From positions 1 through 64,000 of the forward strand of contig JAMCZQ010000004.1 in NCBI GenBank assembly GCA_023485295.1: a DNA stretch of 64,000 nucleotides, written 5' to 3'. The notes under the pieces were generated by a model. The model was given only the letters and a program-made list of their open reading frames with translations, did no database searches and had not been told where the DNA came from. Numbering within the stretch: the stretch's first letter is position 1; each line of letters starts with the position of its first letter. A program made the position numbers and the translations under genes. Shown piece after piece: positions 11,260 to 38,000 of this stretch. The DNA is from Candidatus Marsarchaeota archaeon (lineage in GTDB: Archaea > Micrarchaeota > Micrarchaeia > Micrarchaeales > Micrarchaeaceae).

Positions 11260-11277
11260 CGCGTAAATCTAAACTGT

Positions 11278-11352
11278 GCTCCCGTCGTCTAGTCCGGTCA
11301 AGGACGCAGGCCTCTCAAGTCTGAAACTCGGGTTCAAATCCCGGCGGGAGCA
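11278..11352 (+). tRNA. tRNA-Glu (anticodon CUC), casposon target
   Basis: Acceptor GCTCCCG/CGGGAGC with discriminator A; anticodon stem CAGGC/GTCTG around CTCTCAA (anticodon CTC); T arm with GGGTTCAAATCCC. The last four bases (AGCA, 11349-11352) form the start of the 14-bp duplicated casposon target. Confidence 0.94.
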
Positions 11353-11362
11353 TCTGAATATA
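11349..11362. repeat. Casposon target-site duplication, left copy
   Basis: AGCATCTGAATATA overlaps the last four bases of tRNA-Glu and is repeated perfectly at 21141-21154, just outside the other end of the element. Confidence 0.95.
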
Positions 11363-11393
11363 GGGGTTATATATAAATCAAAGATTTTGAACA
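11363..11393 (+). repeat. Casposon terminal inverted repeat, left
   Basis: A 31-bp repeat beginning GGGGTTATATATAAATCAAA and ending GATTTTGAACA; it is the exact reverse complement of 21110-21140. The match stops sharply at both inner ends. Confidence 0.96.
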
Positions 11394-11446
11394 TCTTTCG
11401 AACGTAAGATTTATGTATTTTACCTCCCTAACTTATTGGGGGTAAA

Positions 11447-11827
11447 ATGGTTCAGAAAAAAATAACCAGTGCAGAATTGCGTTCGCTTGGCATAGCAGGA
11501 GTAATAGTTGCTGTTGTTCTTATCGCTGGAGGGTCTGGCAGTGGAACTTTTCAAACACATATCATCATATACCTCCTTTCAGCAATATTTGGGATACTGG
11601 GAATTGGCAGTATAGTAAAACCGGATAGCTTTGGGCCAATATTGGCTGCGCTAGTTAACGGGCTTCAAGGCTCTGGAAGCACCTTCTCTTCAAAAAGCAG
11701 AGCTAGTAGTTCCAGTAGTACCAAGAGCACATACATTTATCAAGATAATCGGGGTGCTAAAGGGCCAATCATAACGAGAGTTGGATCAGAAGGCGATGAC
11801 AATATCAACACGGCAGACAACAAGTAA
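11447..11827 (+). CDS. Casposon small membrane protein (two helices, Ser-rich tail)
   Basis: The first gene inside the left terminal repeat encodes 126 residues: a basic N-terminus, hydrophobic helices at about 14-30 and 37-57, and a Ser/Gly-rich polar tail (SSKSRASSSSSTKS). The ATG at 11447 follows GGGGG/GGTAA. It is unlike any family I know. Small two-helix proteins of this kind are frequent cargo in archaeal mobile elements; holin-like, signalling and toxin roles are all open. Confidence 0.6.
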   Translation: MVQKKITSAELRSLGIAGVIVAVVLIAGGSGSGTFQTHIIIYLLSAIFGILGIGSIVKPDSFGPILAALVNGLQGSGSTFSSKSRASSSSSTKSTYIYQDNRGAKGPIITRVGSEGDDNINTADNK

Positions 11828-11865
11828 AAAGGATAATAAGGCAATCGGAGAAATGTAGATAGCCT

Positions 11866-12009
11866 TTGGGGGTTGCTTTAATTGCTGGGACGTTAGTTGG
11901 AGCTGCCACTACCGTAACACTAAATATTCTGCACATAGTTACTTTGGCCATATGCTTTGTAATAGGTGCTTTCTTCATCCACTCTAGTGTAAGAAAGAGG
12001 TATAGTTAA
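11866..12009 (+). CDS. Possible casposon micro-membrane protein (47 aa)
   Basis: A TTG-initiated frame, 38 bases after the previous stop, reads MGVALIAGTLVGAATTV, a second hydrophobic stretch (HIVTLAICFVIGAFFIH) and a basic end SSVRKRY. Two helices with positive-inside charge make it plausible, but the small size, the TTG and the lack of a clear ribosome-binding site keep this tentative. Confidence 0.4.
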   Translation: MGVALIAGTLVGAATTVTLNILHIVTLAICFVIGAFFIHSSVRKRYS

Positions 12010-12021
12010 ATGCATATAGGA

Positions 12022-13443
12022 TCAGGAACTCAGTTGTAGATAATCTTTAATCAACTTTCTAGATAACTTAATCACATCTATCGTTTTACTGCTAATGTCA
12101 GCAAATTTTTTGTGCTCCATAATTTCCATATTTTGTTCTGAGTCTATATCTACAGACCCATGTCCTATATAGTTACGGAGATTCTGATAGGTATCTAAAT
12201 CACTACCCTTGAAAGGTATATTTTTATTATTGAGAATTTTTTCTATGTATCTTCTTTTAAGACCAGATTCAGTGCGGCTACCACTGATATTTTTACCATA
12301 TATCCATAAGTTTTGTATGTCTGCATACGCAGTTCCTTTTGCTAATTCATCGTTCCTGAACTCTCGTTTTGCCATAGTCTCTATAGATCTCCAAGCAGAG
12401 AAGAAAGACAGTTCTGGTATAAACCATGCACGGATAGCTTCTCCAGAGAAGATTATTGCTTTATCTAATAGTATATCAATATTCCCAAGTGCAAGTGTTT
12501 TGTTGGCTATGTCAGGCGCATTATGAATATTGCTTATTATTTCATTAGGTAGTACATCATCAAAAACAGGCAAGTCTGAGGTAAAGAATGGATCTAATAT
12601 ATCTTTATGCATATATGAACTTCTATCAAACATAATCAGAGATATTGAAAATTCGGCGCCAGCTGCAAAAAGTAAATGCCCCTGAACACGCCGGCGCATA
12701 GGTACGAATCCCTTATACCATCTTTCTGTTGAATCCTGATACAAATCCGATTTTAATTTAATTACTTTTTGAGAATCTTGTGCTGTAATCTGCGGTAGTT
12801 GATTTGTGCTTTGGTTTGGAATAGCGATATGCACAAACTGATTCGGAGTTAAATGTGCGAGCATGAAGTACTCAGAATCTTGTAACGCATTTCTGTTGAC
12901 ATATTCAGTTTGATTATACAGATCTATGAAATTTGTTTCATCAGCATCGATGGGGTTATTGAAAGTCTGGGTTTTATCTGCCCTTTCGAATCTGAGTATA
13001 TATAGGAAAATTCCTAATGCCCATGCCCCTGTAATCCCTCCAAGAACTTCACGCAATGTTTCAATATTGACCTTAACTATAGAAAAATCGAAACTGATAA
13101 GTAATAAAATTAAGAGTATCGGTGCTGTTCGAATTAAGATGAGTATTGATCCAATTGCTATATATTTTATCCTATTCTTCCATCCAGAAGACCTCCTAAA
13201 ACTCTGAAGAGCCTGTATTTTTTTAAATGAAAACACATACGCTATAAACCATTCATAAACAAAGATCGTATATGCGACAATGACTCCTACGATTGTTTCT
13301 GAGACAGCTATGGCCGGTTCCACTTTGAAATAAGCTAATCCTAAAAGCAAAAAAATCAAGAATAGTACAATTCCAGAACATAAACCGAGATAAATTAGGT
13401 GTTTATTTTTTAATATGCTGAATAAAGCCAAGTAATCACTCAT
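12022..13443 (-). CDS. Casposon cargo: membrane protein with C-terminal HEPN-like domain
   Basis: The 473-residue protein has four hydrophobic segments in its first 170 residues (about 17-37, 45-70, 92-115 and 130-152) and a large soluble C-terminal part. Near the end, R423-N-Y-I-G-H428-G within LRNYIGHGSVDID matches the Rx4-6H motif of HEPN ribonucleases, in a helical context (residues about 330-470). Its ATG overlaps the TGA of the casposase gene (ATGA), so it is translationally coupled to cas1. A membrane-anchored HEPN protein could be an abortive-infection or toxin-like effector; that role is inferred from the motif only. It is not a known core casposon gene. Confidence 0.62.
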   Translation of the reverse strand: MSDYLALFSILKNKHLIYLGLCSGIVLFLIFLLLGLAYFKVEPAIAVSETIVGVIVAYTIFVYEWFIAYVFSFKKIQALQSFRRSSGWKNRIKYIAIGSILILIRTAPILLILLLISFDFSIVKVNIETLREVLGGITGAWALGIFLYILRFERADKTQTFNNPIDADETNFIDLYNQTEYVNRNALQDSEYFMLAHLTPNQFVHIAIPNQSTNQLPQITAQDSQKVIKLKSDLYQDSTERWYKGFVPMRRRVQGHLLFAAGAEFSISLIMFDRSSYMHKDILDPFFTSDLPVFDDVLPNEIISNIHNAPDIANKTLALGNIDILLDKAIIFSGEAIRAWFIPELSFFSAWRSIETMAKREFRNDELAKGTAYADIQNLWIYGKNISGSRTESGLKRRYIEKILNNKNIPFKGSDLDTYQNLRNYIGHGSVDIDSEQNMEIMEHKKFADISSKTIDVIKLSRKLIKDYLQLSS

Positions 13444-14639
13444 ATTTTTCTGAAAACTTTACCGTAGATTTTAATCTTCTTTCCCTCTTTTATGTGCTTC
13501 TTCATATACCACAGAGTTGACTTATTCACGCTTAACCTCTTGCGGTCTTGTGGAGTTAGGCTTAGCACCTTACTGCGGACACCTGTGCTGTCTTCACGCT
13601 TTATCTTGAACTCTGGTACTTTGAATTGTGGCTTGTCCGACTTGCCCATTATGTAGTTTGCAAGCAACCTGACGTTTTCGTACAGAATATTCTGGTAGCT
13701 GTAGTATTTACCATTGTATAACGCCCTTGCATTGAAGTTCAGCTTTATCTTCTCGATTAGTGCTTTAGCTGTGCTTTCCCTTAGCCTTATGTTGTAGTTC
13801 TCTGTTACGATAAAGTCCGCCTTCTTGAGCCTCTTTTCCTCTAGTAACTGTATTACAGATAGGTCTACCAGCCACCTATAAAGCTCTTGAACGTCGTAAA
13901 CAAGCGAGGCTCTGCTGTTCGATAGCTCGTGCAAGAAGCTAATCGATGAATCAAGCCCTATGGAATTGAGGTCTTTCCTAACCTCTGATTCCAGTACAGC
14001 ATAGCCATAGTTCAGCAAGGCGTTTATCTCATCTGAGGCGTTGCGGTTATGCGAGTTTAAGGTGTTGTTCCTGCTAACGAACTTGAACTCTGGGCACATT
14101 TTATTGAACACGTTTATGATCTGAGACCAGTAAATGTCTGCGATTCTACCCTCATACATCATAAGGTTGCGGTAATCGTAAGTTGTCTTCAACTTGAATA
14201 TGGATTCTTTATTTGATTCTGAACTTATCGTATTTGCATCAATCTCGCTGTAGTATTTTGATAGCTCGCTCAGCAGATTTATGGACTGCTTGACCTTCTC
14301 CTTGATTATTGGGTATGCAATCCCATACCGCCTCTTCTCATCTTTATATATCTCATACTGCCTTAGCCTCAGTTTGCTTGATACCGTTTCTTTAGGCAAC
14401 GTAACGCTTAGCAGATTGCCGTTCCAGTTGAGCATTGTGATAGAGATGTTGTGCTTTACCAGCCATCGCATAGCCTCGAAGCTTATACTGCCTGTATGCC
14501 CATCTACTATTACAGAGTCATGCTTTATCTGATGCGGATAGTATTCGTGCCTCTGGTTGTCCAGCTTGTTCTGAATGATTAGACGACGCTTATCTACGCT
14601 TATGTTAGTGCCGAATCCTGAGATTAGTAATGGGTTCAT
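13440..14639 (-). CDS. cas1: Casposase (Cas1-family integrase)
   Basis: The 399-residue protein is a full Cas1 fold. The N-terminal beta domain (about 1-85) has LLISGFGTNISVDKRRL; the helical catalytic domain has MMYEGRIADIYW (E163), NALLNYGYAVLESEV, SFLHELS (H237) and SLVYDVQELYRWLVD (D249, E252), so the E-H-D/E metal-binding site is intact. Residues about 355-399 (LTPQDRKRL, NKSTLWYMKKHIKEGKKIKI) form the extra C-terminal HTH typical of casposases and absent from most CRISPR Cas1 proteins. It should integrate the element by joining 3'-OH ends of the terminal repeats to the tRNA-Glu target. The gene is coupled by ATGA to the HEPN-like gene and follows the 319-residue HTH gene by 13 bases. 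Confidence 0.95.
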   Translation of the reverse strand: MNPLLISGFGTNISVDKRRLIIQNKLDNQRHEYYPHQIKHDSVIVDGHTGSISFEAMRWLVKHNISITMLNWNGNLLSVTLPKETVSSKLRLRQYEIYKDEKRRYGIAYPIIKEKVKQSINLLSELSKYYSEIDANTISSESNKESIFKLKTTYDYRNLMMYEGRIADIYWSQIINVFNKMCPEFKFVSRNNTLNSHNRNASDEINALLNYGYAVLESEVRKDLNSIGLDSSISFLHELSNSRASLVYDVQELYRWLVDLSVIQLLEEKRLKKADFIVTENYNIRLRESTAKALIEKIKLNFNARALYNGKYYSYQNILYENVRLLANYIMGKSDKPQFKVPEFKIKREDSTGVRSKVLSLTPQDRKRLSVNKSTLWYMKKHIKEGKKIKIYGKVFRKI

Positions 14640-14652
14640 TTTGCATCACCAT

Positions 14653-15612
14653 TTACCTAAGCGCACTAGGTTGCCATGAAGATTTTAGATAAGGTTTCTG
14701 TTTTGTATATTCTAACTGATCCAGATTTCTTATTGCTGAAGACCTAACCCAAGATATTAATCCAGCACTATGTTCTTTATTTTCATTCCTAAATCTTTTT
14801 TCCAGATTAAAAAGTTTTGTTCTATTCTCTTCTACTAATTTAGCTACAGACGGGTTGCAATACGTTTCCGTCAGGTAATTGAAAATGTCATTACTATAGT
14901 TTTCATTCAATGTGGTTGCGTCTTTAATTAGTTGGGTTACAACGATACTATCAGAATAATGCCCCAAAAGTTCTATCACCAATGATCGTATGCTATGTTG
15001 TTTATATGAGTCAAGGGAGTACACCTTTAAAAGCGAGTGCAAAATGCCCTTTGTCTGTATTATATCAGTAGGTTCAACACCTTTATTTATTTCGCCAAAA
15101 AGAAGCATGAAGATTGAATATCTTAGCTTGTCGTCTTTAATCTGTAACTTTTCTACAAATTTATCTAACTGAGTTCCATCTAAAATATATCTTTGTCTAT
15201 ACGCATCTAATTCGGTTAATACAAGCTGGATGTCTTCGCTTTTATCTGAATCAAGCAATTTTAGCACATTATTGATATGTTCTTTGATTTTAGTTGTTTC
15301 TTTGAAAAGTAAATATACTGCTTTTTTATCTGTTTCTTTTATTCCAAACTTCTGGATGTCGCCGTAGTAAATTCGGATGAGGATTTTGTCATCACATAAA
15401 TCATTAATCTTTCGTTCTAACGTAACTTTACTATAGCCAACGATGTTTTGGTGCGCCACACTAAGTTTGGCGATTAAATCCCTTTTACGTATATATGGCA
15501 TAGTTCCGAAGGCGTTCTTTATCTCTGCCAGAAGGTCTATATCGTTTTTTAATTTTTTCATATCAAAATACCTATTTTTCATATTCGTTCTATATATCAA
15601 ATTGTATATCAT
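14653..15612 (-). CDS. Casposon winged-helix/helical-repeat protein
   Basis: The 319-residue protein starts near an AT-rich promoter shared with the divergent gene at 15679. Residues about 25-85 (IRKRDLIAKLS, YSKVTLERKINDLCDDKILI) look like a winged helix; the rest is helical with HEAT-like periodicity (residues about 110-290). A start at the internal ATG before KNRYFDMKK is also possible. It is the first gene of the leftward trio that includes cas1. It may regulate the element or assist the integrase; I cannot name a family. Confidence 0.6.
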   Translation of the reverse strand: MIYNLIYRTNMKNRYFDMKKLKNDIDLLAEIKNAFGTMPYIRKRDLIAKLSVAHQNIVGYSKVTLERKINDLCDDKILIRIYYGDIQKFGIKETDKKAVYLLFKETTKIKEHINNVLKLLDSDKSEDIQLVLTELDAYRQRYILDGTQLDKFVEKLQIKDDKLRYSIFMLLFGEINKGVEPTDIIQTKGILHSLLKVYSLDSYKQHSIRSLVIELLGHYSDSIVVTQLIKDATTLNENYSNDIFNYLTETYCNPSVAKLVEENRTKLFNLEKRFRNENKEHSAGLISWVRSSAIRNLDQLEYTKQKPYLKSSWQPSALR

Positions 15613-15678
15613 TGTTAATATTAATCTATTTAAACCTTTCTATTAGACCATGCGCTGGAAAAAAGCGCAATATATGAA

Positions 15679-16350
15679 GTGGTTTCGATGAGATTCAGCA
15701 AAAGATACAGAAACTTTGAAGATTGGTTATTCACCCACGATAGGCATACTAGCTACATAAAACGTGTAGTCAGGTTACATTCGCTCTATCCTAAAGCGAC
15801 TTTGGATCAGCTAAGGGGGCATGTTAAAATAGCTACAAAGAAGCTCAGTAAAAGCAAGCCAAAGCTCATATCCACAAGACCCTGGAACACGCTCAGCCCT
15901 AAAGAACAATTAGCAAGGGAGCGAGCTTTAGAGGTTCTGAGTCAAGCCAGGAGATCTAGATTATCACTATCAAAACTCGGCAAAGAACACGGAATATCGG
16001 TTAAATCAGTCCTAAAGGCTACTCGTGGCTTCAAGAAGGTAAAGGGTCGCTGGAAAGCAAAGAAGATAGACCATATCTCACGCATAATGGCAATAAACGA
16101 GAACGGCAAGGAGCTGTTCATAGAGGTAACTGATTCTCGCTATGCAACACTTATCGGCAAGTACCATAGCTCAGTAAAGGAATACCTCAACACTGGCAAT
16201 ACTGATGTTCTAGTCGATTTTGAAGATAAGAGAGTAAAGGATAGTTCAGGCAAGTGGCATACCCTTGAAACAAATCCCTCAGTTATACGTGAAATCAACG
16301 CAAGGCGAGAAGAGCCAGAGTTTTACGATATTTACCAGGTGAACGTATGA
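15679..16350 (+). CDS. Casposon HTH DNA-binding protein
   Basis: A very basic 223-residue protein, GTG at 15679 or ATG at 15688. Residues about 85-125 (EVLSQARRSRLSLSKLGKEH then GISVKSVLKATRGF) form a helix-turn-helix, preceded by a Lys/Arg-rich region and followed by an acidic C-terminal part (about 135-220) with KVKGRWKAKKIDHISR. Similar basic HTH proteins accompany polB in described casposons. Its stop overlaps the start of the next gene (ATGA), making a rightward operon with the zinc-finger, HNH and polymerase genes. Confidence 0.62.
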   Translation: MVSMRFSKRYRNFEDWLFTHDRHTSYIKRVVRLHSLYPKATLDQLRGHVKIATKKLSKSKPKLISTRPWNTLSPKEQLARERALEVLSQARRSRLSLSKLGKEHGISVKSVLKATRGFKKVKGRWKAKKIDHISRIMAINENGKELFIEVTDSRYATLIGKYHSSVKEYLNTGNTDVLVDFEDKRVKDSSGKWHTLETNPSVIREINARREEPEFYDIYQVNV

Positions 16351-16739
16351 TACAATGTCCATATTGCAAGCGCAGTTTTGGTAGTGAAGGGTCGTACAGG
16401 GTGCATAAGCACCGATTCCATAAAGGTATGGAATATAAGCAACCAGTATTTACGCATGAAGTGGTTCAGCAACCAACACCAGAGCCAGTTGAAGCTGAAA
16501 AAGGCATTGAAGAGTCAGACGTTATAACTGAGGATATCTACACGCCACTAAAGATGCGGTATGATGGTGCAATACCAGAACCACAGCCAGAGCAACCTAA
16601 ACCACAAGAGCCAGAACACCATGATCATAGCATTGTAGAGCGAGGCAAAGATAGCGATGGTGACGGACTTGCCATTCTCGGTGGCATAGGGGCTATAGCA
16701 GTTGTTATCATTCTGGCATTACTGGGCAAGAAACAGTGA
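16347..16739 (+). CDS. Casposon C2H2 zinc-finger protein with C-terminal membrane anchor
   Basis: The 130-residue protein begins MIQCPYCKRSF and continues to VHKHRFHKG, a single C2H2 finger (C4, C7, then two His of the VHKHRFH segment). The middle is Glu/Pro-rich and acidic. Residues about 104-126 (LAILGGIGAIAVVIILALLG) form a single membrane helix followed by KKQ. A nucleic-acid-binding finger tethered to the membrane is an odd pairing. The gene overlaps its upstream neighbour by ATGA. Confidence 0.66.
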   Translation: MIQCPYCKRSFGSEGSYRVHKHRFHKGMEYKQPVFTHEVVQQPTPEPVEAEKGIEESDVITEDIYTPLKMRYDGAIPEPQPEQPKPQEPEHHDHSIVERGKDSDGDGLAILGGIGAIAVVIILALLGKKQ

Positions 16740-16743
16740 TAAC

Positions 16744-17294
16744 ATGCATAAAAACGATAGAGATAGTGTTAAAATGACTGTAAAAATGGATGTAAAGATA
16801 AATGATAAAATAACGGATAATAATGATAAAAGGAGCATAAAAGAAGGTAAAAATACGGATAAAAAGCAGAAATTGTTATCAGATATTATCAGCTATTTCT
16901 TTGATTCAGCAGAAAAGAACAATCTGGATAACAAAAAGGTCAATAAGGTTGTAAAAGATGTTCAATACCTAGTCAAAAAAGACCCTAAACAGAGGGATAC
17001 CAAGTGTTTTATATGCGAGAAAGATTAGAACTGCACCATATAGCAGGCAGAAACAACTCTGAGATGACTGTTTCTCTATGCGTACCATGCCACAATGAGA
17101 TAACAAAGCATCAGAATACGTGGGATGTACGCTGGACTAATCAAAACAACACAGAAACACTACAAAACGGATTCATAATGCAAGGTATTAGGGAATTGCT
17201 TTTGCTGAAATACGTCAAAACAGGGGATTACACTTACTATTGCTTAGCAGATTCCCTATGTTATGGCGTAGGCAAAGCACTGGCGAGCAGATGA
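16744..17294 (+). CDS. Casposon HNH endonuclease, split by a -1 frameshift
   Basis: Two frames make one protein. Frame one starts at ATG 16744 (GTGA four bases upstream) and gives a Lys/Asp-rich helical N-terminus ending in KCFICEKD, stop at 17026-17028. Frame two carries LELHHIAGRNNSEMTVSLCV and CHNEITKHQ to the stop at 17292-17294. Joined by a -1 slip on AAA (17020-17022) the product of about 182 residues has CFIC, HH (HNH catalytic) and CVPC, the zinc-binding HNH layout, with nothing missing. Neither half alone holds both Cys pairs. The cause may be a real mutation, programmed slippage or a sequencing error. Its stop overlaps the polymerase start (ATGA), so it was part of the operon. Confidence 0.75.
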
Positions 17295-19948
17295 ACGAAG
17301 GAATTAGCATAGCATTGCGATGTTATATAGACAACGAACTCAATCCACAGAACGATAACTTTACCTATTATAACGATAATTTAGTGTTTGTTTTTGACAC
17401 AGAAACAACGATAGACCAGTATCAGAACCTAAAATTTGGGTCTTACAGCATATGGCAGAACGATAAACTGGATGAGTTTGGGCTGTTTTATGATAACAGT
17501 TTGGATAACAATGAAGTAAAAACGTTATCGGACTATTCCAATAAAAAGCACATAAAACTGATGACGAAAAGCCAATTTCTTGATTTGTTTATAAACATAG
17601 TCTATAAAAGAAGGGCAATTTGTGTTGGTTTTAATTTACCTTTTGACATATCGCGAATAGCGATAGATTATAGCGTATCCAGGAAAGATAGCAACGCCTT
17701 CTCTTTCAAGCTATTCGATAACGTCTATATACCTAGAATCATCATAAAGCACATCGATTCTAAACGTTCATTGATAAACTTCTCTACGCCTTACTCTAAA
17801 AACTATAAAAAAGTTAACAGATACAGAGGCATATTCGTTGATCTGAGAACGTTATCTTTTGCGTTAACCAACAATAATCACTCTCTTGAAAGTGCATGTA
17901 AACTGTTTAACGTTGAGCATAAAAAACTGAAGACTGAAGATCATGGCAAGATAACGCCAGAGTACATACAATACAACATAAACGATGTTTTTGCGTCTTA
18001 TGACCTGTTTCTTGCATTGAAAAGCGAGTTTTCAAAGTATAAACTGTCAACACCACTGAGCAAACTGTTATCGCCAGCGTCTATAGGCAAGGAATACTTC
18101 AAGGAGATGGGCATCAAGCCGTTCCTAGAACTGAACCCCATGTTCCCTAAGCACTTGCTCGGATGGATAATGACCACCTATTACGGTGGTAGAACAGAAG
18201 TGCATATACGCAAGTCACCTGTAAAGGTATCATATATCGACTTTACATCCATGTATCCGTCGCAATTCGTATTACTCGGATTATGGGATTACGTTATCGC
18301 AGATAACATCGAAGTCATAGAAGATAACAAATTCGATAACTTGCTGGATAGCATACAGCTAAACGACCTTACAAACAAGGATTTATGGAAAACGCTCAAT
18401 GGTATCGCTCTCGTGGACGTGGATAACGACATCTTGCCACTCAGAGCTAAATACAAAGGCAATGCGGCATACAATATAGGACTGAACTTTGCAAAAGGCA
18501 AGGCACTTTGGTACACTTATCCTGACATCATAGCGTCAAAACTGCTTACTGGCAAAGTACCTAAGATAATCAAGGCGTTTCGATTTGTTGCCAAAGGCAA
18601 ACAGGGCAACCTACATTCAATAAACCTGTTTGGGAAGACAATAGATCCGTATAAAGACGATTTTATTCGCTATCTAATCGAGCATAGACTAGAGGTAAAG
18701 CAAAAATTGAAGCAAGACTCTGATAACAAAGATCTCAAGAAAGAGGACTTTATCGCCAAAATAATCGCAAATGCCACCTCTTATGGCATTTTCGTTGAAG
18801 TAAACACGCAAAACGAGAGGGTAAATGCAGAAATCTATGGAATAAATAAGTTTACGTGCGAGATAGACAAGAAAGAGCAGTTTGGCAGAGCGTTCAACCC
18901 TATTATTGCAACTATGTTAACATCAGGATCAAGGTTAATACTTGCCATGGTGGAAACAGTTGCACGTGAAAACCAAGGCTACTTTGCATATTGCGATACC
19001 GATTCACTCTTTGTTAACCCAGAATTAGTGGATAAGATTCAAGCATTCTTCAGGTCTCTGAATCCTTACACTACACCAGTTGAGATGTTCAAGGTAGAAA
19101 ACGATGAGAATGGCAAGCCTCTAGACGATGTTTGGTTTTATGGCATTTCTGCAAAGCGGTATTGTATGTACAGCATGGAGAGCGGTAAAATCAACATCTT
19201 AAAGCATTCATCCCATGGCCTGGGTGGTTTGATAGGTATAAATGAAGATGGGGTAAAAGCTATTTGGAAAGATATACTAGGTCATCATTATAATACACTA
19301 TCGAAAGCGGAGACAGAGAGCAAATATTCAAACAAATATGTGATTGGTAAACTTGCTTTGACTTCGCCGTTTGTCTTACGGCGTTTTAGACGCACAAACA
19401 AGAATAAAAAACTAAAGCCATTCAATTTTGTTATAGTTGGCATTGGGCATAGGTTGGATCCTTCAACCAGGGAACCAATAATACCCATGTTGGCTTACAC
19501 CAAAAACACAGATATCGTGCCGTTTAGCTCATTTACTGATTACAAAACTGGCAAAGCGTATGTTGACAATACACAGTTTTATTGGAAACCGTTTTCAGAA
19601 TTCCTCTTAGACTACATGAATCATAACGATGGCAAGTATGATGGGAATATAGGAGAGTTGAAAAGGAAACAAATTGATATCGGAGAGATAGAACACATCG
19701 GCAAAGAGTCAAACAACCTTGAAGAAAGCGAAGTTCTCGGCGTTTCTGACGATAATTATACCATATATGGTGCTAGAATTGATGAGAAACTGTGTAAGAT
19801 AATCCCTAACCTAACTAATATAGATGCAAAACAAATTGGAATATCCAGAACAGAACTGTATTATCTTAATAAGATGGTTAAAGAAGGAAAGAAGATAAGA
19901 ATGAAAAGGAAGACGTTGAGAAAACTATTAAATAACCTCTACTATTAG
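17291..19948 (+). CDS. polB: Casposon family B DNA polymerase
   Basis: The ATG at 17291 overlaps the HNH stop (ATGA) and is preferred to an upstream in-frame start, giving 885 residues. Exonuclease motifs are intact: FDTET (D36, E38), FNLPFD (N115-D119) and YNIND (Y228-D232). Polymerase motifs are DFTSMYPS (D317, motif A), K..ANATSYG (about 490-499, motif B) and YCDTDS (about 568, motif C). It should replicate or repair the element, with proofreading. The C-terminal 45 residues (ISRTELYYLNKMVKEGKKIR and on) match the HTH tail of the casposase next door, which is unusual. Codon use is AT-rich like the rest of the element. Confidence 0.93.
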   Translation: MNEGISIALRCYIDNELNPQNDNFTYYNDNLVFVFDTETTIDQYQNLKFGSYSIWQNDKLDEFGLFYDNSLDNNEVKTLSDYSNKKHIKLMTKSQFLDLFINIVYKRRAICVGFNLPFDISRIAIDYSVSRKDSNAFSFKLFDNVYIPRIIIKHIDSKRSLINFSTPYSKNYKKVNRYRGIFVDLRTLSFALTNNNHSLESACKLFNVEHKKLKTEDHGKITPEYIQYNINDVFASYDLFLALKSEFSKYKLSTPLSKLLSPASIGKEYFKEMGIKPFLELNPMFPKHLLGWIMTTYYGGRTEVHIRKSPVKVSYIDFTSMYPSQFVLLGLWDYVIADNIEVIEDNKFDNLLDSIQLNDLTNKDLWKTLNGIALVDVDNDILPLRAKYKGNAAYNIGLNFAKGKALWYTYPDIIASKLLTGKVPKIIKAFRFVAKGKQGNLHSINLFGKTIDPYKDDFIRYLIEHRLEVKQKLKQDSDNKDLKKEDFIAKIIANATSYGIFVEVNTQNERVNAEIYGINKFTCEIDKKEQFGRAFNPIIATMLTSGSRLILAMVETVARENQGYFAYCDTDSLFVNPELVDKIQAFFRSLNPYTTPVEMFKVENDENGKPLDDVWFYGISAKRYCMYSMESGKINILKHSSHGLGGLIGINEDGVKAIWKDILGHHYNTLSKAETESKYSNKYVIGKLALTSPFVLRRFRRTNKNKKLKPFNFVIVGIGHRLDPSTREPIIPMLAYTKNTDIVPFSSFTDYKTGKAYVDNTQFYWKPFSEFLLDYMNHNDGKYDGNIGELKRKQIDIGEIEHIGKESNNLEESEVLGVSDDNYTIYGARIDEKLCKIIPNLTNIDAKQIGISRTELYYLNKMVKEGKKIRMKRKTLRKLLNNLYY

Positions 19949-19955
19949 TTTAACT

Positions 19956-20519
19956 ATGCCGGCTCGAAAACTAAAATCCTGGAGCTTAAAGGAGATAGCC
20001 CAGATAATAGTGATTCCGATCGTAATTGGAATAATCTCAAGCGCTATATATGCATACGTAGTAACTTCTACTGCTCCAGAGCCACTGATTTATATAAGAA
20101 TCATACAGACCTCTTTTAACTTTCCAATTAATCAACCACATTATATAGCTATTCAATTTAGTAATTATGGCAAAGCTAATTGTGCATATATACACTTTAA
20201 GATAAACACGAGAGATGGTATCTTTATACTAACGCCGTCATCAAATATTACTATATATCCGCAGTCAATAATTAAAAGCGGAATTACATATGATAACAAA
20301 ACAAATTCCGAATGGTTTACAGCTACTATGTCCAATATAGAACCATACGAGTATGGATATATCTCCTTCATAGTAAGTAATACAATCAAATATCCTGACA
20401 ATCTCTATGTAAACATATCGGATCTTGAAGGATGCGCTTCTCAATACAGGATATTTACTTATGCTCAACTAGAAAATAACTCATCTCTTGTGAATGCGAA
20501 GAATTTAACTATAACTTGA
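19956..20519 (+). CDS. Casposon signal-anchored extracellular protein
   Basis: A 187-residue protein starting 8 bases after polB. A basic head (PARKLKSW) precedes one membrane helix (about 15-38, AQIIVIPIVIGIISSAIYAY), then an outside domain rich in Asn, Tyr and Ile with many N-x-S/T sites and beta-strand character. No family recognised. It is the last gene of the rightward operon. Confidence 0.55.
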   Translation: MPARKLKSWSLKEIAQIIVIPIVIGIISSAIYAYVVTSTAPEPLIYIRIIQTSFNFPINQPHYIAIQFSNYGKANCAYIHFKINTRDGIFILTPSSNITIYPQSIIKSGITYDNKTNSEWFTATMSNIEPYEYGYISFIVSNTIKYPDNLYVNISDLEGCASQYRIFTYAQLENNSSLVNAKNLTIT

Positions 20520-20626
20520 TAGAAAGATGTAGATTCCGTACATATAGATATAATGAAATTGGTATGTACTAAACTATAGATAAATATTATATTATAAAAC
20601 AGTCATTTAGGGTGGCCCTCAAAGTT

Positions 20627-21058
20627 CTATCTTTTTTCTAAGAAGATGGCTAAACCCATCCCTGCAAAAACGACAACTATAGAAATGATTGAAGATAGGA
20701 TTACATCAAAACTTACTACAGCAGGGGTTAAACTGGAAAGATCAGGCCAGAAAAGATAAAGGCCCACTAATGCTCCCATTCCAAATATTAATGTTTTATA
20801 TTTCATTTTTAGACCGTTTTCGAAATCCTGAATAATCCAAATAATAGCTAATGCTCCAATGATTATTGCCATTGTGGATCCAAAATAAGCCATTGTGTTT
20901 GCAAAAGTAGGGGCCATAGATATGGCGGTGCCTATTATAATTTTGTGTGCCTGAGACAGAGCATAAATTAATTCAGAGTCTATTACTTGTATTACAGGCA
21001 TGAAAAACCCGGAAATGAATATGCTTGCATAAATCTCCTTTTCTATTAGTTTTGGCAT
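20627..21058 (-). CDS. Casposon four-helix membrane protein
   Basis: The 143-residue protein has hydrophobic segments at about 9-27, 38-60, 62-78, 90-104 and 115-138, with a charged stretch QDFENGLKMKYK in the middle. It lies just inside the right terminal repeat and reads inward. No family recognised; cargo of unknown role. Confidence 0.55.
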   Translation of the reverse strand: MPKLIEKEIYASIFISGFFMPVIQVIDSELIYALSQAHKIIIGTAISMAPTFANTMAYFGSTMAIIIGALAIIWIIQDFENGLKMKYKTLIFGMGALVGLYLFWPDLSSLTPAVVSFDVILSSIISIVVVFAGMGLAIFLEKR

Positions 21059-21109
21059 AATTTTTTTTAGTCTGAACTGATATTTATAACTTTCATAAAT
21101 CTGAAAATG

Positions 21110-21140
21110 TGTTCAAAATCTTTGATTTATATATAACCCC
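21110..21140 (-). repeat. Casposon terminal inverted repeat, right
   Basis: Exact 31-bp reverse complement of the left repeat, ending in ATATATAACCCC immediately before the duplicated target. Confidence 0.96.
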
Positions 21141-21154
21141 AGCATCTGAATATA
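21141..21154. repeat. Casposon target-site duplication, right copy
   Basis: AGCATCTGAATATA, identical to 11349-11362; the original downstream flank of tRNA-Glu resumes with AAGCACAGAG at 21155. Confidence 0.95.
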
Positions 21155-28880: not shown

Positions 28881-29015
28881 GCCCTTAATGCTAAGAAAGC
28901 TTTTTATTTGTTTCGCGGACCGCTTTTATGGAAAGATATATATATTTGCTTTGAGATGGCTTCGTGCGCTTTTGTAGGAAAAAGCTTTGTATTTTATGCT
29001 GTAGGGGTAGTCTTA

Positions 29016-32000
29016 ATGTCTATTGGCAAATTCAAACCGGTTTTCGCAGCCATGTTGATGGCTGTATTCCTTATCGGAATCGTTCACGCAGCACCTGTTT
29101 TGACATCGCTGTCAGCGAGCAACAGTACGATAGATTTAGGCCAGTACGTCACATATAATGTAATAGCCAGCAATGTGATATCTCCTTTTACTGTAAATTT
29201 GATATATACTGGTGGTCCAGGGACTGTTGATGAAGAATCTGCAGTAAACGTCATAGAAACTAATTCGATAACATCAAACGGTGTGGTTACATTTACAAGC
29301 TTCAACGGCTTTTCTACAACAGGTTCTTATTCATTCAATGCAATAGGAACTTCAAACGGCATATCAGTATCAAGCAACGAAAATACAATAACCGTGAATT
29401 CTGCGCTTGGAACGCCAACCATATCATCAGCATCATCCTCTTATGATTCAGGTCAGACAGTCATCCTTACTGCTTCAGCTTCAGGCGGCACGACTCCTTA
29501 TTCATATCAGTGGTATAATGATACATCAGGAACAGCAATAAGCGGTGCAACATCAAATGTGCTTAGCCTCACTGCAAACTCCCCTTCAACTAAAATATTC
29601 AGCTACTTCGTATCAGTCAAAGACAGCGCCACAACCCCAGAAACTGAAAACAGTGTAGCAGCAAGCGTGAAAGTGTATCCTCCACTTAGCGTTACAGTCA
29701 CCAATTCTACGGTATATCTGGATGCAGGCCAGGAAATAGACTTTACGGCATCAGCTTCAGGCGGCACAGGAGCTGCAGATTATACTTATGAATGGACTTA
29801 TGGATCTCTGACACCAGTAAGCGGCTGCACTTCAGGGAACACCGCAACAACATGCAAGGTTGAAGCTACTACTGCAGGTACATATACAATAAATGTTGCA
29901 GTGACAGACAATGGCATTCCAACCCCAGAGACTGCAAATGCAGAAGCATCTTTGACTGTAAACACCGATCCTGTAATAACCTTAACACCAACACCAGTTG
30001 CTGCTGATGGTGGACAGGCAGTAGTATACACTGCTTCAATCACAGGCGGCACCGGTCCCTTCAATGTAGAGCTTTACAATATAACAAAAGTAACCTCTTT
30101 TATACCAAATATAATCATTGATGAAGACTCCAGCGGTAATTTCGTATTTACTTCACCTGCATCAGGCGCAGTTGTGAATTTTAATGCCATTGCAACAGAT
30201 ACAGGCACCAATGTGCCATACTTATTTACGTCCGGCAATGTTGAGCTCACTGGCTCGCCATCACCTTATATAACAATAAGCCCGTACAGCGGCTCTAATG
30301 CTGGCAACCTGTTTGATGCAGGCCAGCCAATAACATACAAGTTTCAGATTACAGGCGGCACCGGCCCGTTCGAAGTCCTATTGCATAATGTAACTGGTTC
30401 AAGTACGCAAATCTCAAATATAAGCGTTCCAAGAAGTAGTACCCGCGTAGAAACTGGCAACTTCATGTTCGATTCAGGTACGGAAGCAGGGACATTTGAA
30501 TACAATGCTATAGCTACAGATACTGGATTAACGCCTTCATACTATGTTTTCAATTCCATAACAAACACAATAGTGGTGCACGGCGCACCTTCTGTAAGCC
30601 TTGCCCCGAGCAATGCCATAGCCGATGCAGGCCAGTCCGAAACGCTTTTGGCATCAGTCACTGGCGGCACACCCCCATATACATACACATTCTACAATCT
30701 ATCAGGCTCTACTCCAAAACCAATAAGCGGCTGCACTTCAATACCTTCAAGCACATGCACATTCACAACTTCTGCAACAGGCAGCTTTACGTATAATGTA
30801 GTGGTGACAGACAGCGCCACTACACCGGAAACCTTCAACTCGATACCGATATCAATAACGGTAAACACTGCACTGGTGGCAAACGCGCCGCTTGTAACTA
30901 ATTCAATACTTGACCAAGGTCAGAGCTCTACATTAATATCTCAGGCTTCTGGCGGAACGCCACCATACACCTATGAATGGTTTGAAAATTCCGATGATGA
31001 AGGCACAGGGCCAGAATACCAGTTCATAACAAGTTCAAGCACACCTAAAGGAACGTATACCTTTGATTATAAAGTAACAGATTCCGCCTCTACGAATTCA
31101 GTAGTCACATCAGGTACAAACACGGTAACCGTTAACACAGCTCCTTCAATAACCCTTACGCCAAGCAATTCTGTCTTAGACGCCGGCCAGTACGAGACAT
31201 TTACAATGCACGTAACCGGCGGCACCGGCCCGTTCGACGTAGAGCTCTACAATATTTCCGGTTCTAAAGCTGTCGGGAACGTGATAATATCCTCACCCGG
31301 TGGCAGCAACACAATAACTTTCAAGACATCAAAAACAGGCTCATTCGAATACAACGCCATCGCAACAGACGAAGGCACAACAGAGCATTATACATTCTCT
31401 TCTGTAACCAATACCATAACGGTAGACTCTGCCCTTTCCGCAAACCCGATATCGATAAACGGCACAAAGTTTGACATAGGGCAAAGCATCGCGCTTTCAA
31501 CAACCCCACCAACAACAGGAACGCCACCATACACCTATGACTTCATAATAGAGAGTTCCACAGGAGCAACACTGTTCTCTTCAGGCTACACATCATCAAA
31601 CACATACATGTACACTGCGAACACTCTTGGCACAGATATTGCCAACGTAATAGTAAAAGACAGCGCATCAACACCATCATTCTCAACATCAAACACTGTA
31701 ACATTCACAACAGTATCAACTCCTTCAATAACACTAACGCCAAGCAATTCCGTCTTAGACGCCGGTCAGTACGAGACATTCACAATGTCTGTAACAGGCG
31801 GCACCGGTCCCTTCAATGTAGAGCTTTACAATATCACTGGCAATACTATAGTCGGCAGTGTCATAGTACCATACGATGGCAGCAACACAATAACTTTCAA
31901 GACATCAAAAACAGGCTCATTCGAATACAACGCCATCGCAACAGACGAAGGCACAACAGATCCATACACAGTCACCTCTTCAGTCAATACCATAACGGTA

Positions 32001-35000
32001 GACTCTGCCCTTTCCGCAAACCCGATATCGATAAACGGCACAAAGTTTGACATAGGGCAAAGCATCGCGCTTTCAACAACCCCACCAACAACAGGAACGC
32101 CACCATACACCTATGACTTCATAATAGAGAGTTCCACAGGAGCAACACTGTTCTCTTCAGGCTACACATCATCAAACACATACATGTACACTGCGAACAC
32201 TCTTGGCACAGATATTGCCAACGTAATAGTACAAGACAGCGCATCAACACCATCATTCTCAACATCAAACACTGTAACATTCACAACAGTATCAACTCCT
32301 TCCGTAACCCTTACGCCAAGCAATTCAACGCTTGATGCAGGCCAGTACGAGACATTTACAATGTCTGTAACAGGCGGCACCGGTCCCTTCGATGTTGAGC
32401 TTTACAATATTTCAGGCGGAAAGCCAGTTGGCAACGTCATAGTACCATACGATGGCAGCAACACAATAAGCTTCAATGCCTTAAATTCAGGCTCAAGCCC
32501 GCTTACACTGAGTTACAACGCCATCGCAACAGACGAAGGCACATCAGATCCATACACAGTCACCTCTTCAGTCAATACCATAACAGTCAATACTAAACCT
32601 GTGCTCACAATAAGCCCAAGCAATCCAACAATAGACTCTGGCACCGAAGAAACATATACTATGCACGTAACAGGCGGCACCGGCCCGTTCGACGTTGAGC
32701 TCTACAACATTACCGGCGAAAAGCCTCAGGGAAGCAATGTAATAATATCGCTTCCAGGCGGCAGCAACACCATAAGCTTTACAATAAATTCACCAACAGC
32801 AATCACCTATTCATTCAACGGAATCGCAACAGACGAAGGCACCACAACACCTTACGTATTCAACTCAACAAAGAGCAGCATAGAAGTGGCCGCAAGCGTC
32901 GGAATAACCCTTACGCCCAGCAACATAACGCTTGACGCCGGCCAGTACGAGACATACAATGCCGGAATAACAGGTGGAGTCGGTCCGTTTAATACAGAAC
33001 TATATAATATAACTGGCTCAAAGCAGCAGGGTGGCACCCACAATGATTCTATAATAAGCGGAGATTACGGCACGTTTACCTTCCAAACCGGAGTGCCAGG
33101 AACCTATGAATACAACGCCATCGCAACAGATACTGGCACAACACCACCAGAAAAGTTCAGCTCAAGCCCTCCAAATACCATAGTGGTATATAGTACACCA
33201 ACAGTAAGTTTAAGCCCAAGCTCACTATATATAGATTATCCACAGCCCGAAACGCTATCTGCAACAGTGACTGGAGGAAGCGGAGACTTCCTTTACACAT
33301 TCTATGAGCCTTCTAGCGGCACTGCGCCTATATGCTCCCAATCTACAAGCAGTACATGCACGGCTGTCGATGATTACAACGGTATCGGTACTGACACGTT
33401 TAATGTAATAGTGACCGATATCGGAGTAACAACGCCTTACACATTCAATTCGCCGCTTCTTAGCGTTTATCTGCATCCTGAGCTCGAGCCTGCTGTAGTG
33501 AGCCAACCTACCTCAACCTACACGCTTGACGTAGGTCAGACAATGACCATAAGCGCATCTTCAGCTAGCGGAGGAACCCCGCCATACACATATACATGGT
33601 CGATAGCTAGCGGCACATCATGCCCTAGATTTGTGGTACCTGGAAATGTGCATGAATTTAGCTATACCCCAACAGGTCCATCGAGCAATTGTGAATTTAC
33701 CATAGCCACAGAAGATAGTGCATCTACACCAGAGACAGGTACAAGCACAACATCAAATATAATTATTGATTCTAAGCCTGTAGTTTCATTGTCACCAACA
33801 AATCCAGTAATAGATGCAGGCCAAAGCATAGCTCTACATGCATCAGTCACTGGCGGCACCGGTCAGTTCTCATACCAGTGGTATACAGGAATCCCAGGCG
33901 GCAGCAACACACTAATAAGTGGAGCCACTGGCACTTCGTATGACGCAAATACACCATCTACAACCTCATACTTTGTAGTGGTCACAGACACAGGCACAAA
34001 TACGCCATATACATTCAATTCCATAAAAGACACAGTCACAGTAGATGCAGATCCATCAGTAACAGTATTGCCCCCAACTTCAACACTTGATGTAGGTCAG
34101 TCAGAAACGCTTTCTGCATCAGTCACTGATGGTACAGGCTCGTTCTCATACCAGTGGTACAACGACACAAAAGGAACAGGCGCAGCAATACCAGACGCAA
34201 CATCATCCTCGTACACATTCAACGCAAACAACGCAAACACGTTCGAATATTACGTGGTGGTCACAGACACAGGCACAACAACAGGTGCAACGCCTACTAT
34301 TACTGCTACGTCAAACAATGCAGTAATAACTGTTAACAAGGATCCGTCTATTGCAATATTCCCATCATCTGCCACAATTGACGCAGGCCAGACAATAAAG
34401 TTCACAAACAAAACGTCGGATGGAACAGGTCCGTTTACCTACTCGTATTCCGTATCTCCAAACAACGGATTCACTAAAAACGACAACAGCTTCACATTCA
34501 CAACACCAAACACTTACACCGTGAAAGAAACCGTAACTGACGCAAACGGAGAAACTGCCAATGCAGTTTCAACAGTCACAGTTGATGCAGATCCATCAGT
34601 AACAGTATCGCCCCCAACTTCAACACTTGATGCAGGCCAGTCCGAAACGCTTTCGGCATCAGTCACCGGCGGCACCGGCACATATAGCTACCAGTGGTAC
34701 AACGACACAACAGGCAAAGGCACAACAATATCCGGCGCAACATCATCCTCGTACGCATTCACCGCAAACAACGCAAACACGTTCAAATATTACGTGGTGG
34801 TCACAGACACAGGCACAACAACAGGTGCAACGCCTACGATTACCGCTACGTCAAACAATGCAATAGTAAATGTATATAACGACATTACTCCATCTGATAT
34901 AATCATATCTCCAAGCCCATTCACCGTAGACGTGGGCCAAAGCATAGCCCTGCACGCATCAGTCACCGGCGGCACAGGCACATATAGCTACCAGTGGTAC

Positions 35001-38000
35001 CTCAACGGCAATACATTCGGCACGGATTCAGACACTCTTACCTTTAACGGAAACAGCTCTACTCTATCAACTTCGGTAAATAGAATAGAATTAAAAGTAA
35101 CAGATACAGGAACGTCTGTAACTCCATACCTAAGTGCAAACTCGCCAATAGATTATGGCACTGTTAACACAGCTCCTTCCGTAACCCTTACGCCAAGCAA
35201 TTCCGTCTTAGACGCCGGTCAGTACGAGACATTCACAATGTCTGTAACAGGCGGCACCGGTCCCTTCAATGTAGAGCTTTACAACATAACAGGCAATACT
35301 ATAGTCGGCAGTGTCATAGTACCATACGATGGTAGCAACACAATAACTTTCAAGACATCAAAAATAGGCTCATTCAATTATAACGCCATCGCAACAGACG
35401 AAGGCACATCAGGGCATTATACATTCTCTTCTGTAACTAATACAATAACTGTAGACTCTGCCCTTTCCGCAAATCCGATATCGATAAACGGCACAAAGTT
35501 TGACATAGGGCAAAGCATTGCGCTTTCAACAACCCCTCCAACAACAGGAACGCCTCCATACACCTATGACTTCATAATAGAGAGTTCCACAGGAACAACA
35601 CTGTTCTCTTCAGGCTACACATCATCAAACACATACATGTACCCTGCGAACACTCTTGACACAGATATTGCCAACGTAATAGTAAAAGACAGCGCATCAA
35701 CACCTTCATTCTCAACATCAAATACTGTAACATTCACAACAGTATCAACTCCGTCCGTAACCCTAACGCCAAGCAACACGACTCTTGATGCTGGTCAGTA
35801 CGAGACATTCACAATGTCAGTCACCGGCGGCACCGGTCCATTCAACGTAGAGCTCTACAACGTTTCAGGCGGAAAGCCTGTCGGCAACGTCATAGTGCTA
35901 TACGATGGTAGCAACACAATAACTTTCAAGACATCAAACACAGGTCCGTTCGAATACAACGCCATCGCAACAGACGAAGGCACCACGGATCCATACACAT
36001 TCAGCTCGAACACTGAACTTATTGGAGTAAACAGCAAGCCATCCATAACCCTAACGCCAAGCAACACGACTCTTGATGCTGGTCAGTACGAGACATTCAC
36101 AATGTCAGTCACCGGCGGCACCGGCCCGTTCGACGTAGAGCTCTATAACATCACTGGTGGAAAGTCTGCCGGAAATGTCATAATACCATATGGCGGCAGC
36201 AACACCATAAGCTTCCAGGCAGGCTCCAACACACTATCAAACGCATTCGAATACAACGCCATCGCAACAGACGAAGGCACCACAACACCTTACACATTCA
36301 ACTCTGCAAGCAATACAATAACAGTATCTCCAGCGCCTACATTAACTCTAACTCCTTCATCGTACTCTGCTGACGCCGGCCAGTACATAATTTATACGGC
36401 CAAAGTGTCGGACGCAGGCTTCGGACCATTCAGAGTGCATCTTATGCTAGATAATGTGATTGTGGCAACGGATACGATAACATCTCGTGGAGGCACGGCA
36501 ACATTATCATATCTTACAAGCAACGCAAATATAGGCGTGCTTTCATTCAATGCCGTAGGAACAGACGAAGGCACCACAACGCCTTACGTGTTCAACTCTC
36601 TTCCGGTAACCGCTAACGTATATGCAACTCCAACAACAACGCTTGAACCTAGCAACTCAACGCTTGATGCCGGCCAGTACGAATCGATAAAAGCTCCAAT
36701 AAGCGGAGGCTCTGGCTACTTTACTGTAGATTTCGTTAGCAAAAATGGAAACATACTGCATACAGACACGCTTACTCCAGGAAACAGCATTGCCTATTAC
36801 AACTATTCCACAACGGATACTGGCACGTTTGTTGACCACATATCCGCTAAAGACACCGGCGTTACAATACCATACAGCTTCAATTCGCCTACAAACACGA
36901 TCTATGTATATCAGGCCCCGACAGTGACATCGTTCAGCGTGAGCAACCCAACAATAAGCAATAGCCAGACAGAATATTTCACTGTAAGCGAGGAATACGG
37001 CAAAGGCCCGTTCGAAGTAGAGCTCTTCAACGTAAGCAGCAACAGCAGTGTACCAATAACCCCTGGCAATATAGTGACGCCTGGCGGCAGCAACACCATA
37101 GGCCTTCCAATGGGCAAGACAGGAAGCTTCACATACAAGATGCTGCTGACTGACTTGGGCACCACAACGCCATACAAGTTCAATTCGTCAACCGAAACCA
37201 TAAACGTGTACGAGGCCTCTGGTGCAACCCTTAGCGGCAATACGCCACTAGATTCCGGAGAAACAGAAACCCTTACTGTGGACATCTCCAACGGCATAGG
37301 GCCATTCGAAGTGGAGCTGTACAATATGACAGGAAGCAAGGAGCTCACAAGCTTCAGCGTGTCAAATTCGGTAAGGTCTGGAAGCTATTCATTCACTGTC
37401 GGATCGTTGTCCAACGGTGCAGCGTTTGAGTACAATGCAATAGTTACAGATGAAGCAACAAAGCAGGTAGTATCATCCAATCCTTTCACCGTGACTGTAA
37501 ACACGGCTCTTGGTGCGCCTCACGCCCCGAGCATTTCAGCCCAGAAAATAGACCAGGGCCAGACAGAAACAGTTACTGATACTATTCCAAGCACAGGCAC
37601 AAAGCAATACACCTATGAATGGCTAGTAAGCCATAATGGCGGCAGCTATAGCGAGGCTTTAAGCAGCGAGTGCGCAGTGCCAAGCGGCACTGCCTCTGCA
37701 GGACAGCTTGTAACATGCAGCTTCGATACAAATCAAACAACTCTTACCGGAAACTATATATACAAATTGCAGGTGACAGATTCTGCAGAGCAGCCAAGCA
37801 CCGTAACATCAGCACCATCAAATGCAGTAACACTTGCTGCTATACTTATTTCCACCATAAGCTCAGCTCCATCTACGATAGACGCCGGCCAGTCAATCTT
37901 AATGTCAGGCAGTGCATCCGGAGGGTTTACGCCTTATTCGTACCAGTGGCTTGCAAAAGCTCCAGGCCAGAGCGCGTACACGGCAAGTGAAGCCAATACT

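Follow-up and report, generated by a model that had tools for sequence, protein, structure and literature searches.

The window, the whole 64,000-nucleotide stretch of DNA analysed here, very probably carries a complete family 2 casposon, which measures 9,778 bp between its target duplications, resides in a host of the genus Ca. Micrarchaeum and would have integrated by the mechanism proposed below. The element belongs to a known family, and this family is widespread and has been recently exchanged in the Micrarchaeota. For the origin of spacer integration in CRISPR systems, casposases provide the best model, but they have been studied in only a handful of euryarchaeal and thaumarchaeal elements. 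Phylum-wide, recently moving casposons in small symbionts amount to a large set of natural integration events, which can reveal both the rules of target choice and transfer from host to host. One Micrarchaeota lineage, Ca. M. harzensis, is kept in stable co-culture.

The element and its insertion site

The original prediction placed a casposon at the 3' end of tRNA-Glu, with perfect terminal repeats and a perfect target duplication, and all of this was confirmed. The target gene is a tRNA-Glu(CTC) gene called by ARAGORN (11277..11354, plus strand), and its 3' end, AGCA, forms the first part of the duplicated target. Sequence comparison showed two identical copies of the 14-bp target-site duplication (TSD), AGCATCTGAATATA, at 11349..11362, where it overlaps the end of the tRNA gene, and at 21141..21154 (both plus strand). 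Inverted-repeat comparison placed the terminal inverted repeats (TIRs) at 11363..11393 (plus strand, GGGGTTATATATAAATCAAAGATTTTGAACA) and 21110..21140 (minus strand); they match perfectly over 31 bp and are by a wide margin the longest inverted repeat of the region. TIRs together with a TSD are what is expected of the casposon superfamily. The start of the TIR, GGGGTTATATATA, is present at the two element ends only and nowhere else in the 885-kb genome, and there is one casposon copy in this genome. The copy had been described as apparently fresh, and the data support this in the sense of an apparently recent arrival.

An assembly chimera is unlikely, as gene order is kept in genomes of the same genus: the upstream gene and tRNA-Glu stay adjacent, and in the closed genome G263 the upstream gene, the tRNA gene and an S66 peptidase gene have the identical order. 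The proposed search for an empty site was successful in part. The orthologous tRNA-Glu site is free of a casposon in G263, where about 1.4 kb of other sequence is present at the locus, and also in G264 and G265 as far as their contigs reach, but a joined-flank search for the exact same-strain empty site returned none. In two further genomes of the genus (G267 and G269), the tRNA-Glu site holds casposon ends with other TSDs, indicating that it is a recurrent casposon target.

Target rule and proposed mechanism

The casposase of Aciduliprofundum boonei depends on a TCAAATC motif located 8 bp upstream of the TSD, and its active sites measure the 14 bp (PMC6614799). In Methanosarcina mazei, the TIR is 31 bp long and the 14-bp TSD starts within the final 4 bp of a tRNA gene; the casposase is not active if its helix-turn-helix (HTH) domain is missing (PMC6977970). 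In the window, the TCAAATC leader motif is located in the T-loop (11334..11340, plus strand), exactly 8 bp upstream of the TSD. The same distance was found for 22 of the 25 tRNA-linked Micrarchaeota ends, with 7 or 9 bp for the other 3, and 11 further elements have 14-bp TSDs. TTCAAATC is present in all 21 casposon-bearing tRNAs versus 14 of 22 others (P = 0.004, for related sequences that are not fully independent). The regularity of the target geometry stems partly from the fixed shape of tRNA genes.

By analogy with these two systems, integration by the A. boonei/M. mazei rule is well supported. The casposase would bind the element ends, which start with GGGG, and recognise a two-part target: the TCAAATC motif of the T-loop and the four bases that close the tRNA gene. 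It would join both ends to this target 14 bp apart. Gap repair would then generate the 14-bp duplication and leave the tRNA intact. At least part of the copying of the element may be done by the polymerase it encodes, possibly with help from the HTH, HEAT-like and HNH proteins. We infer this replication step, these helper functions and a role for the cargo, as well as the current activity of the window casposon.

The casposase and its phylogenetic position

The casposase (Cas1) is a protein of 399 aa with a C-terminal HTH (13440..14639, minus strand), assigned from its Pfam Cas_Cas1 match (E = 4.6e-59), PDB entry 6opm, an alignment and a tree. As predicted, the open reading frame (ORF) is intact and carries E163, H237 and D249, none of which varies when the protein is aligned with the M. 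mazei casposase and five relatives from Micrarchaeota. Casposons are recognised by a Cas1 with four catalytic residues that is encoded outside a CRISPR locus, and the protein agrees with this for the residues checked, namely, these three. Among solved structures, the M. mazei casposase 6opm is the closest (residues 2-396, E = 6.7e-78), and the extension of this match to residue 396 shows the C-terminal HTH that is typical of Cas1 in family 2 and absent from CRISPR Cas1.

A tree of 74 Cas1 sequences, with SH-aLRT support from a quick search and without A. boonei and family 4 sequences, places the window casposase in a Micrarchaeota clade (support, 90) that is nested in the family 2 clade with M. 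mazei (SH-aLRT, 98). This Micrarchaeota clade is shallow and lies beside Nitrosopumilaceae and Thermoplasmatota elements. The window casposase stands apart from families 1 and 3 and from CRISPR Cas1: it is separated from thaumarchaeal family 1 (assigned from the presence of DNA_pol_B_2 in four thaumarchaeal loci of the tree), from bacterial PolB-associated proteins and from the CRISPR-reference group, which is defined by the CRISPR references it contains and not by row-by-row locus context. The tree that had been suggested as a check thus puts the protein within family 2 and not in CRISPR Cas1 clades. The idea that the element ties the ancestor of CRISPR adaptation to a symbiotic lineage is unsupported: the casposases of Micrarchaeota branch within family 2, and the genome contains no other Cas1.

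PolB and the other core genes

The family B DNA polymerase is full length, as had been claimed: the protein of 885 aa (17291..19948, plus strand), identified by alignment and with profiles of solved PolBs, has exonuclease and polymerase motifs. The proofreading motifs VFDTET, FNLPFD and YNINDV and the polymerase motifs A/B/C (DFTSMYPS, KIIANATSYG and YCDTDS) are conserved over 12 homologues. Taken by itself, the protein matches no Pfam polymerase family at E<1, and its profile matches to solved PolBs are weak but consistent; its identity comes from the motifs and the profile. A family B polymerase in the same element is a hallmark of casposons, and the C-terminal HTH of this one resembles the casposase HTH, as in family 2. 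The family 1 controls match DNA_pol_B_2, whereas the window PolB does not, which points to a non-protein-primed type and not to the protein-primed PolB of family 1.

The gene set corresponds to the published family 2 core (Cas1-HTH, PolB-HTH, HNH, an HTH-HEAT protein and a second HTH protein), with a weak HEAT assignment and a split HNH gene. The winged-HTH protein with HEAT-like helical repeats (14653..15612, minus strand) shows 27-35% identity to Methanosarcina proteins and, judged from sequence, is orthologous to the cas1 neighbour in Methanosarcina casposons; its structure model has a pLDDT of 82 and gives weak Foldseek matches to HEAT/ARM folds. The second conserved protein, which is HTH-like and about 220 aa long (15679..16350, plus strand), has family 2 orthologues with 31-82% identity and no Pfam match. 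It is followed by a C2H2-type zinc-finger protein with a C-terminal transmembrane (TM) helix (16347..16739, plus strand), assigned from sub-threshold Pfam zinc-finger matches and conserved in relatives.

Frame comparison showed that the HNH gene consists of an N-terminal half with the CxxC knuckle (16744..17028, plus strand) and, in the -1 frame, a catalytic half (LELHHIAGRNN...CVPCH; 17004..17294, plus strand), which is 85-92% identical in close relatives. Throughout the six Micrarchaeota elements (that of the window and L032-L036), the CxxC half and the HH/N/CxxCH half are in different frames that overlap at a TAG, whereas in 14 homologues read from other lineages one ORF covers the whole gene. 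An ATG within the overlap, at 17013 in the window, is kept in all six. We also considered a programmed -1 frameshift and found, by eye, no slippery heptamer common to the six elements. Coupled re-initiation at the overlap ATG is favoured over a frameshift, as this ATG is common to all of them and a slippery heptamer is not. With an HNH gene divided between two frames, it is uncertain whether every gene of the window casposon can be called intact. The split is ancestral and is common to Micrarchaeota elements that spread.

Four cargo ORFs complete the element. Three come from ORF calls: a membrane-protein-like ORF of 126 aa without a family match (11447..11827, plus strand), a membrane-anchored protein of 187 aa (19956..20519, plus strand) and a membrane protein of 143 aa (20627..21058, minus strand). 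The fourth, a protein of 473 aa (12022..13443, minus strand), was characterised by Pfam and motif and has N-terminal TM helices and a C-terminal RNxIGH domain. Its match to Pfam HEPN_MAE_28990 is weak and below the cut-off (E = 0.008), and the RNxIGH (Rx4H) motif is kept in a 55% identical relative; a relative is located in the G203 casposon, on the opposite side of the element. This protein is possibly a HEPN ribonuclease, a label that stays at the motif level because its single-sequence structure model reached a pLDDT of only 39.

Host, spread and lateral movement

The host belongs to the Micrarchaeota and shares its genus with Ca. Micrarchaeum harzensis and with the closed genome G263, so the predicted Micrarchaeota-type (DPANN) host was borne out. 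The literature searched, with most subscription papers outside its scope, contains no report of casposons in Micrarchaeota or other DPANN archaea, and relative to this literature the host range is widened as anticipated. Casposase sequence at ≥45% identity was found in 37 of 301 Micrarchaeota genomes, the window genome included, and is full length in six. Most casposon copies across the phylum are decayed, and both insertion orientations and tandem ends occur.

The casposases of G157, G118 and G203 are 90%, 87% and 82% identical to that of the window, whereas identity to the window genome is 38%, 43% and 45%, respectively, for ArgRS and 52%, 59% and 53% for a GTPase. The difference between casposase (82-90%) and ArgRS (38-45%) indicates recent lateral movement between genera and families; casposons have spread between lineages whose own genes diverged widely. 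Complete elements with 14-bp TSDs are also present in one metagenome-assembled genome (MAG) each of Thaumarchaeota, Thermoplasmata and Nanoarchaeota and in Methanosarcina, and two Aenigmatarchaeota MAGs encode a casposase together with PolB (MAG labels as deposited). A family 2 casposon in Thaumarchaeota has already been published (PMC6563490). Family-2-type casposases with an HTH tail were seen here in many Nitrosopumilaceae MAGs (L056-L066 and L071), which is more than the single published case found.

Comparison with known casposons

The window element resembles the family 2 casposon MetMaz-C1 of M. mazei (source of 6opm) in its 31-bp TIR and in a 14-bp TSD that begins within the final 4 bp of a tRNA gene. 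Both elements have PolB, HNH and a casposase that ends in an HTH; the likeness of the HTH-HEAT protein was seen here in Methanosarcina relatives. MetMaz-C1 differs in host phylum, in cargo, in casposase sequence (37% identity) and in its target, which is tRNA-Leu instead of tRNA-Glu, and the HNH gene, split in the window, is undivided in those Methanosarcina elements that were read. AciBoo-C1 of A. boonei, another family 2 element, shares a location at a tRNA 3' end, a 14- to 15-bp TSD and, 8 bp upstream of it, the TCAAATC motif, but its target is tRNA-Pro and its host is different; its relatedness was judged from published features. Among the closest casposases outside Micrarchaeota are those of the Nitrosopumilaceae elements L056-L066, with about 52-56% identity and the same core genes as the window. 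Their hosts, however, are Nitrososphaerota, the elements read have an unsplit HNH gene, and L056 is not at a tRNA gene, unlike the window casposon. NitNCS1-C1 of Ca. Nitrosotalea okcheonensis is a Nitrososphaerota casposon known here from its paper alone.

Alternative explanations

As the window protein matches Cas1 families, it could in principle belong to a CRISPR adaptation module or to a CRISPR remnant instead of a transposon. We consider this extremely improbable: its closest solved protein is a casposase (E = 7e-78 versus the far weaker 7e-26 for CRISPR Cas1 structures), the casposase match alone covers the HTH, the protein falls in a separate tree clade, and this sole Cas1 of the genome is surrounded by TIRs, a TSD and PolB. 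There is next to no chance, either, that the element is a provirus or integrative plasmid that used a tyrosine recombinase and carries Cas1 as a passenger. The 3' ends of tRNA genes are classic attachment sites for such elements, but the ends here are inverted repeats with a 14-bp duplication and not a repeat of half a tRNA, and no integrase or capsid gene was recognised among the ORFs. Viral contigs scanned with the casposase alignment encoded no relative, which also counts against a provirus.

A more serious alternative, although still an unlikely one, is that the casposon arrived recently but is immobile, an inactive copy retained by chance or for its cargo. This would fit with the predominance of decayed copies in the phylum, the split HNH gene and the single copy in the host genome. 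Against it, the casposase, PolB and both HTH proteins are open, the TIRs and the TSD are perfect, and the HNH split is ancestral and shared by elements that spread. We prefer the reading as a complete family 2 casposon.

Remnants and rearranged copies

In at least 13 genomes, an uninterrupted casposase HTH is preceded by unrelated upstream sequence, and two of these are joined to PolB sequence. The HTH-only remnants (L012, L015, L017-L022, L024, L025, L027, L028, L030 and L169) have differing upstream junctions; for several of them, a tRNA gene with a casposon end is 1-2 kb away. No stop occurs within the HTH in 15 of the 17 copies examined, and dN/dS is about 0.24 overall for these fragments versus 0.20 for full genes, with few private changes. 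Truncated transposases hold P elements in check. It is doubtful, with only a slim chance in our view, that the HTH-only ORFs are working repressors that check full casposons by competing for the target or the ends.

Two copies (L037, 5756-13103; L039, 6680-11985) are internally deleted casposons in which a cas1 fragment abuts a polB fragment; both copies retain TIRs at their ends and, outside these, perfect 14-bp TSDs. TIR-TSD-TIR tandem arrangements are present in L034 (1363-1378), L032 (5938-5995) and L040 (3345-3372), and in L032 two target copies enclose an 18-bp TIR-TIR palindrome, which resembles a casposon that is almost empty.

Elsewhere in the window, positions 28908-40274 encode a repetitive, secreted-looking protein of 3,788 aa with a Thr-rich stretch and a C-terminal TM helix, and positions 54146-56041 a protein of 631 aa with a Walker A motif (GGPGTGKS) that by eye resembles DUF2075-type helicases.
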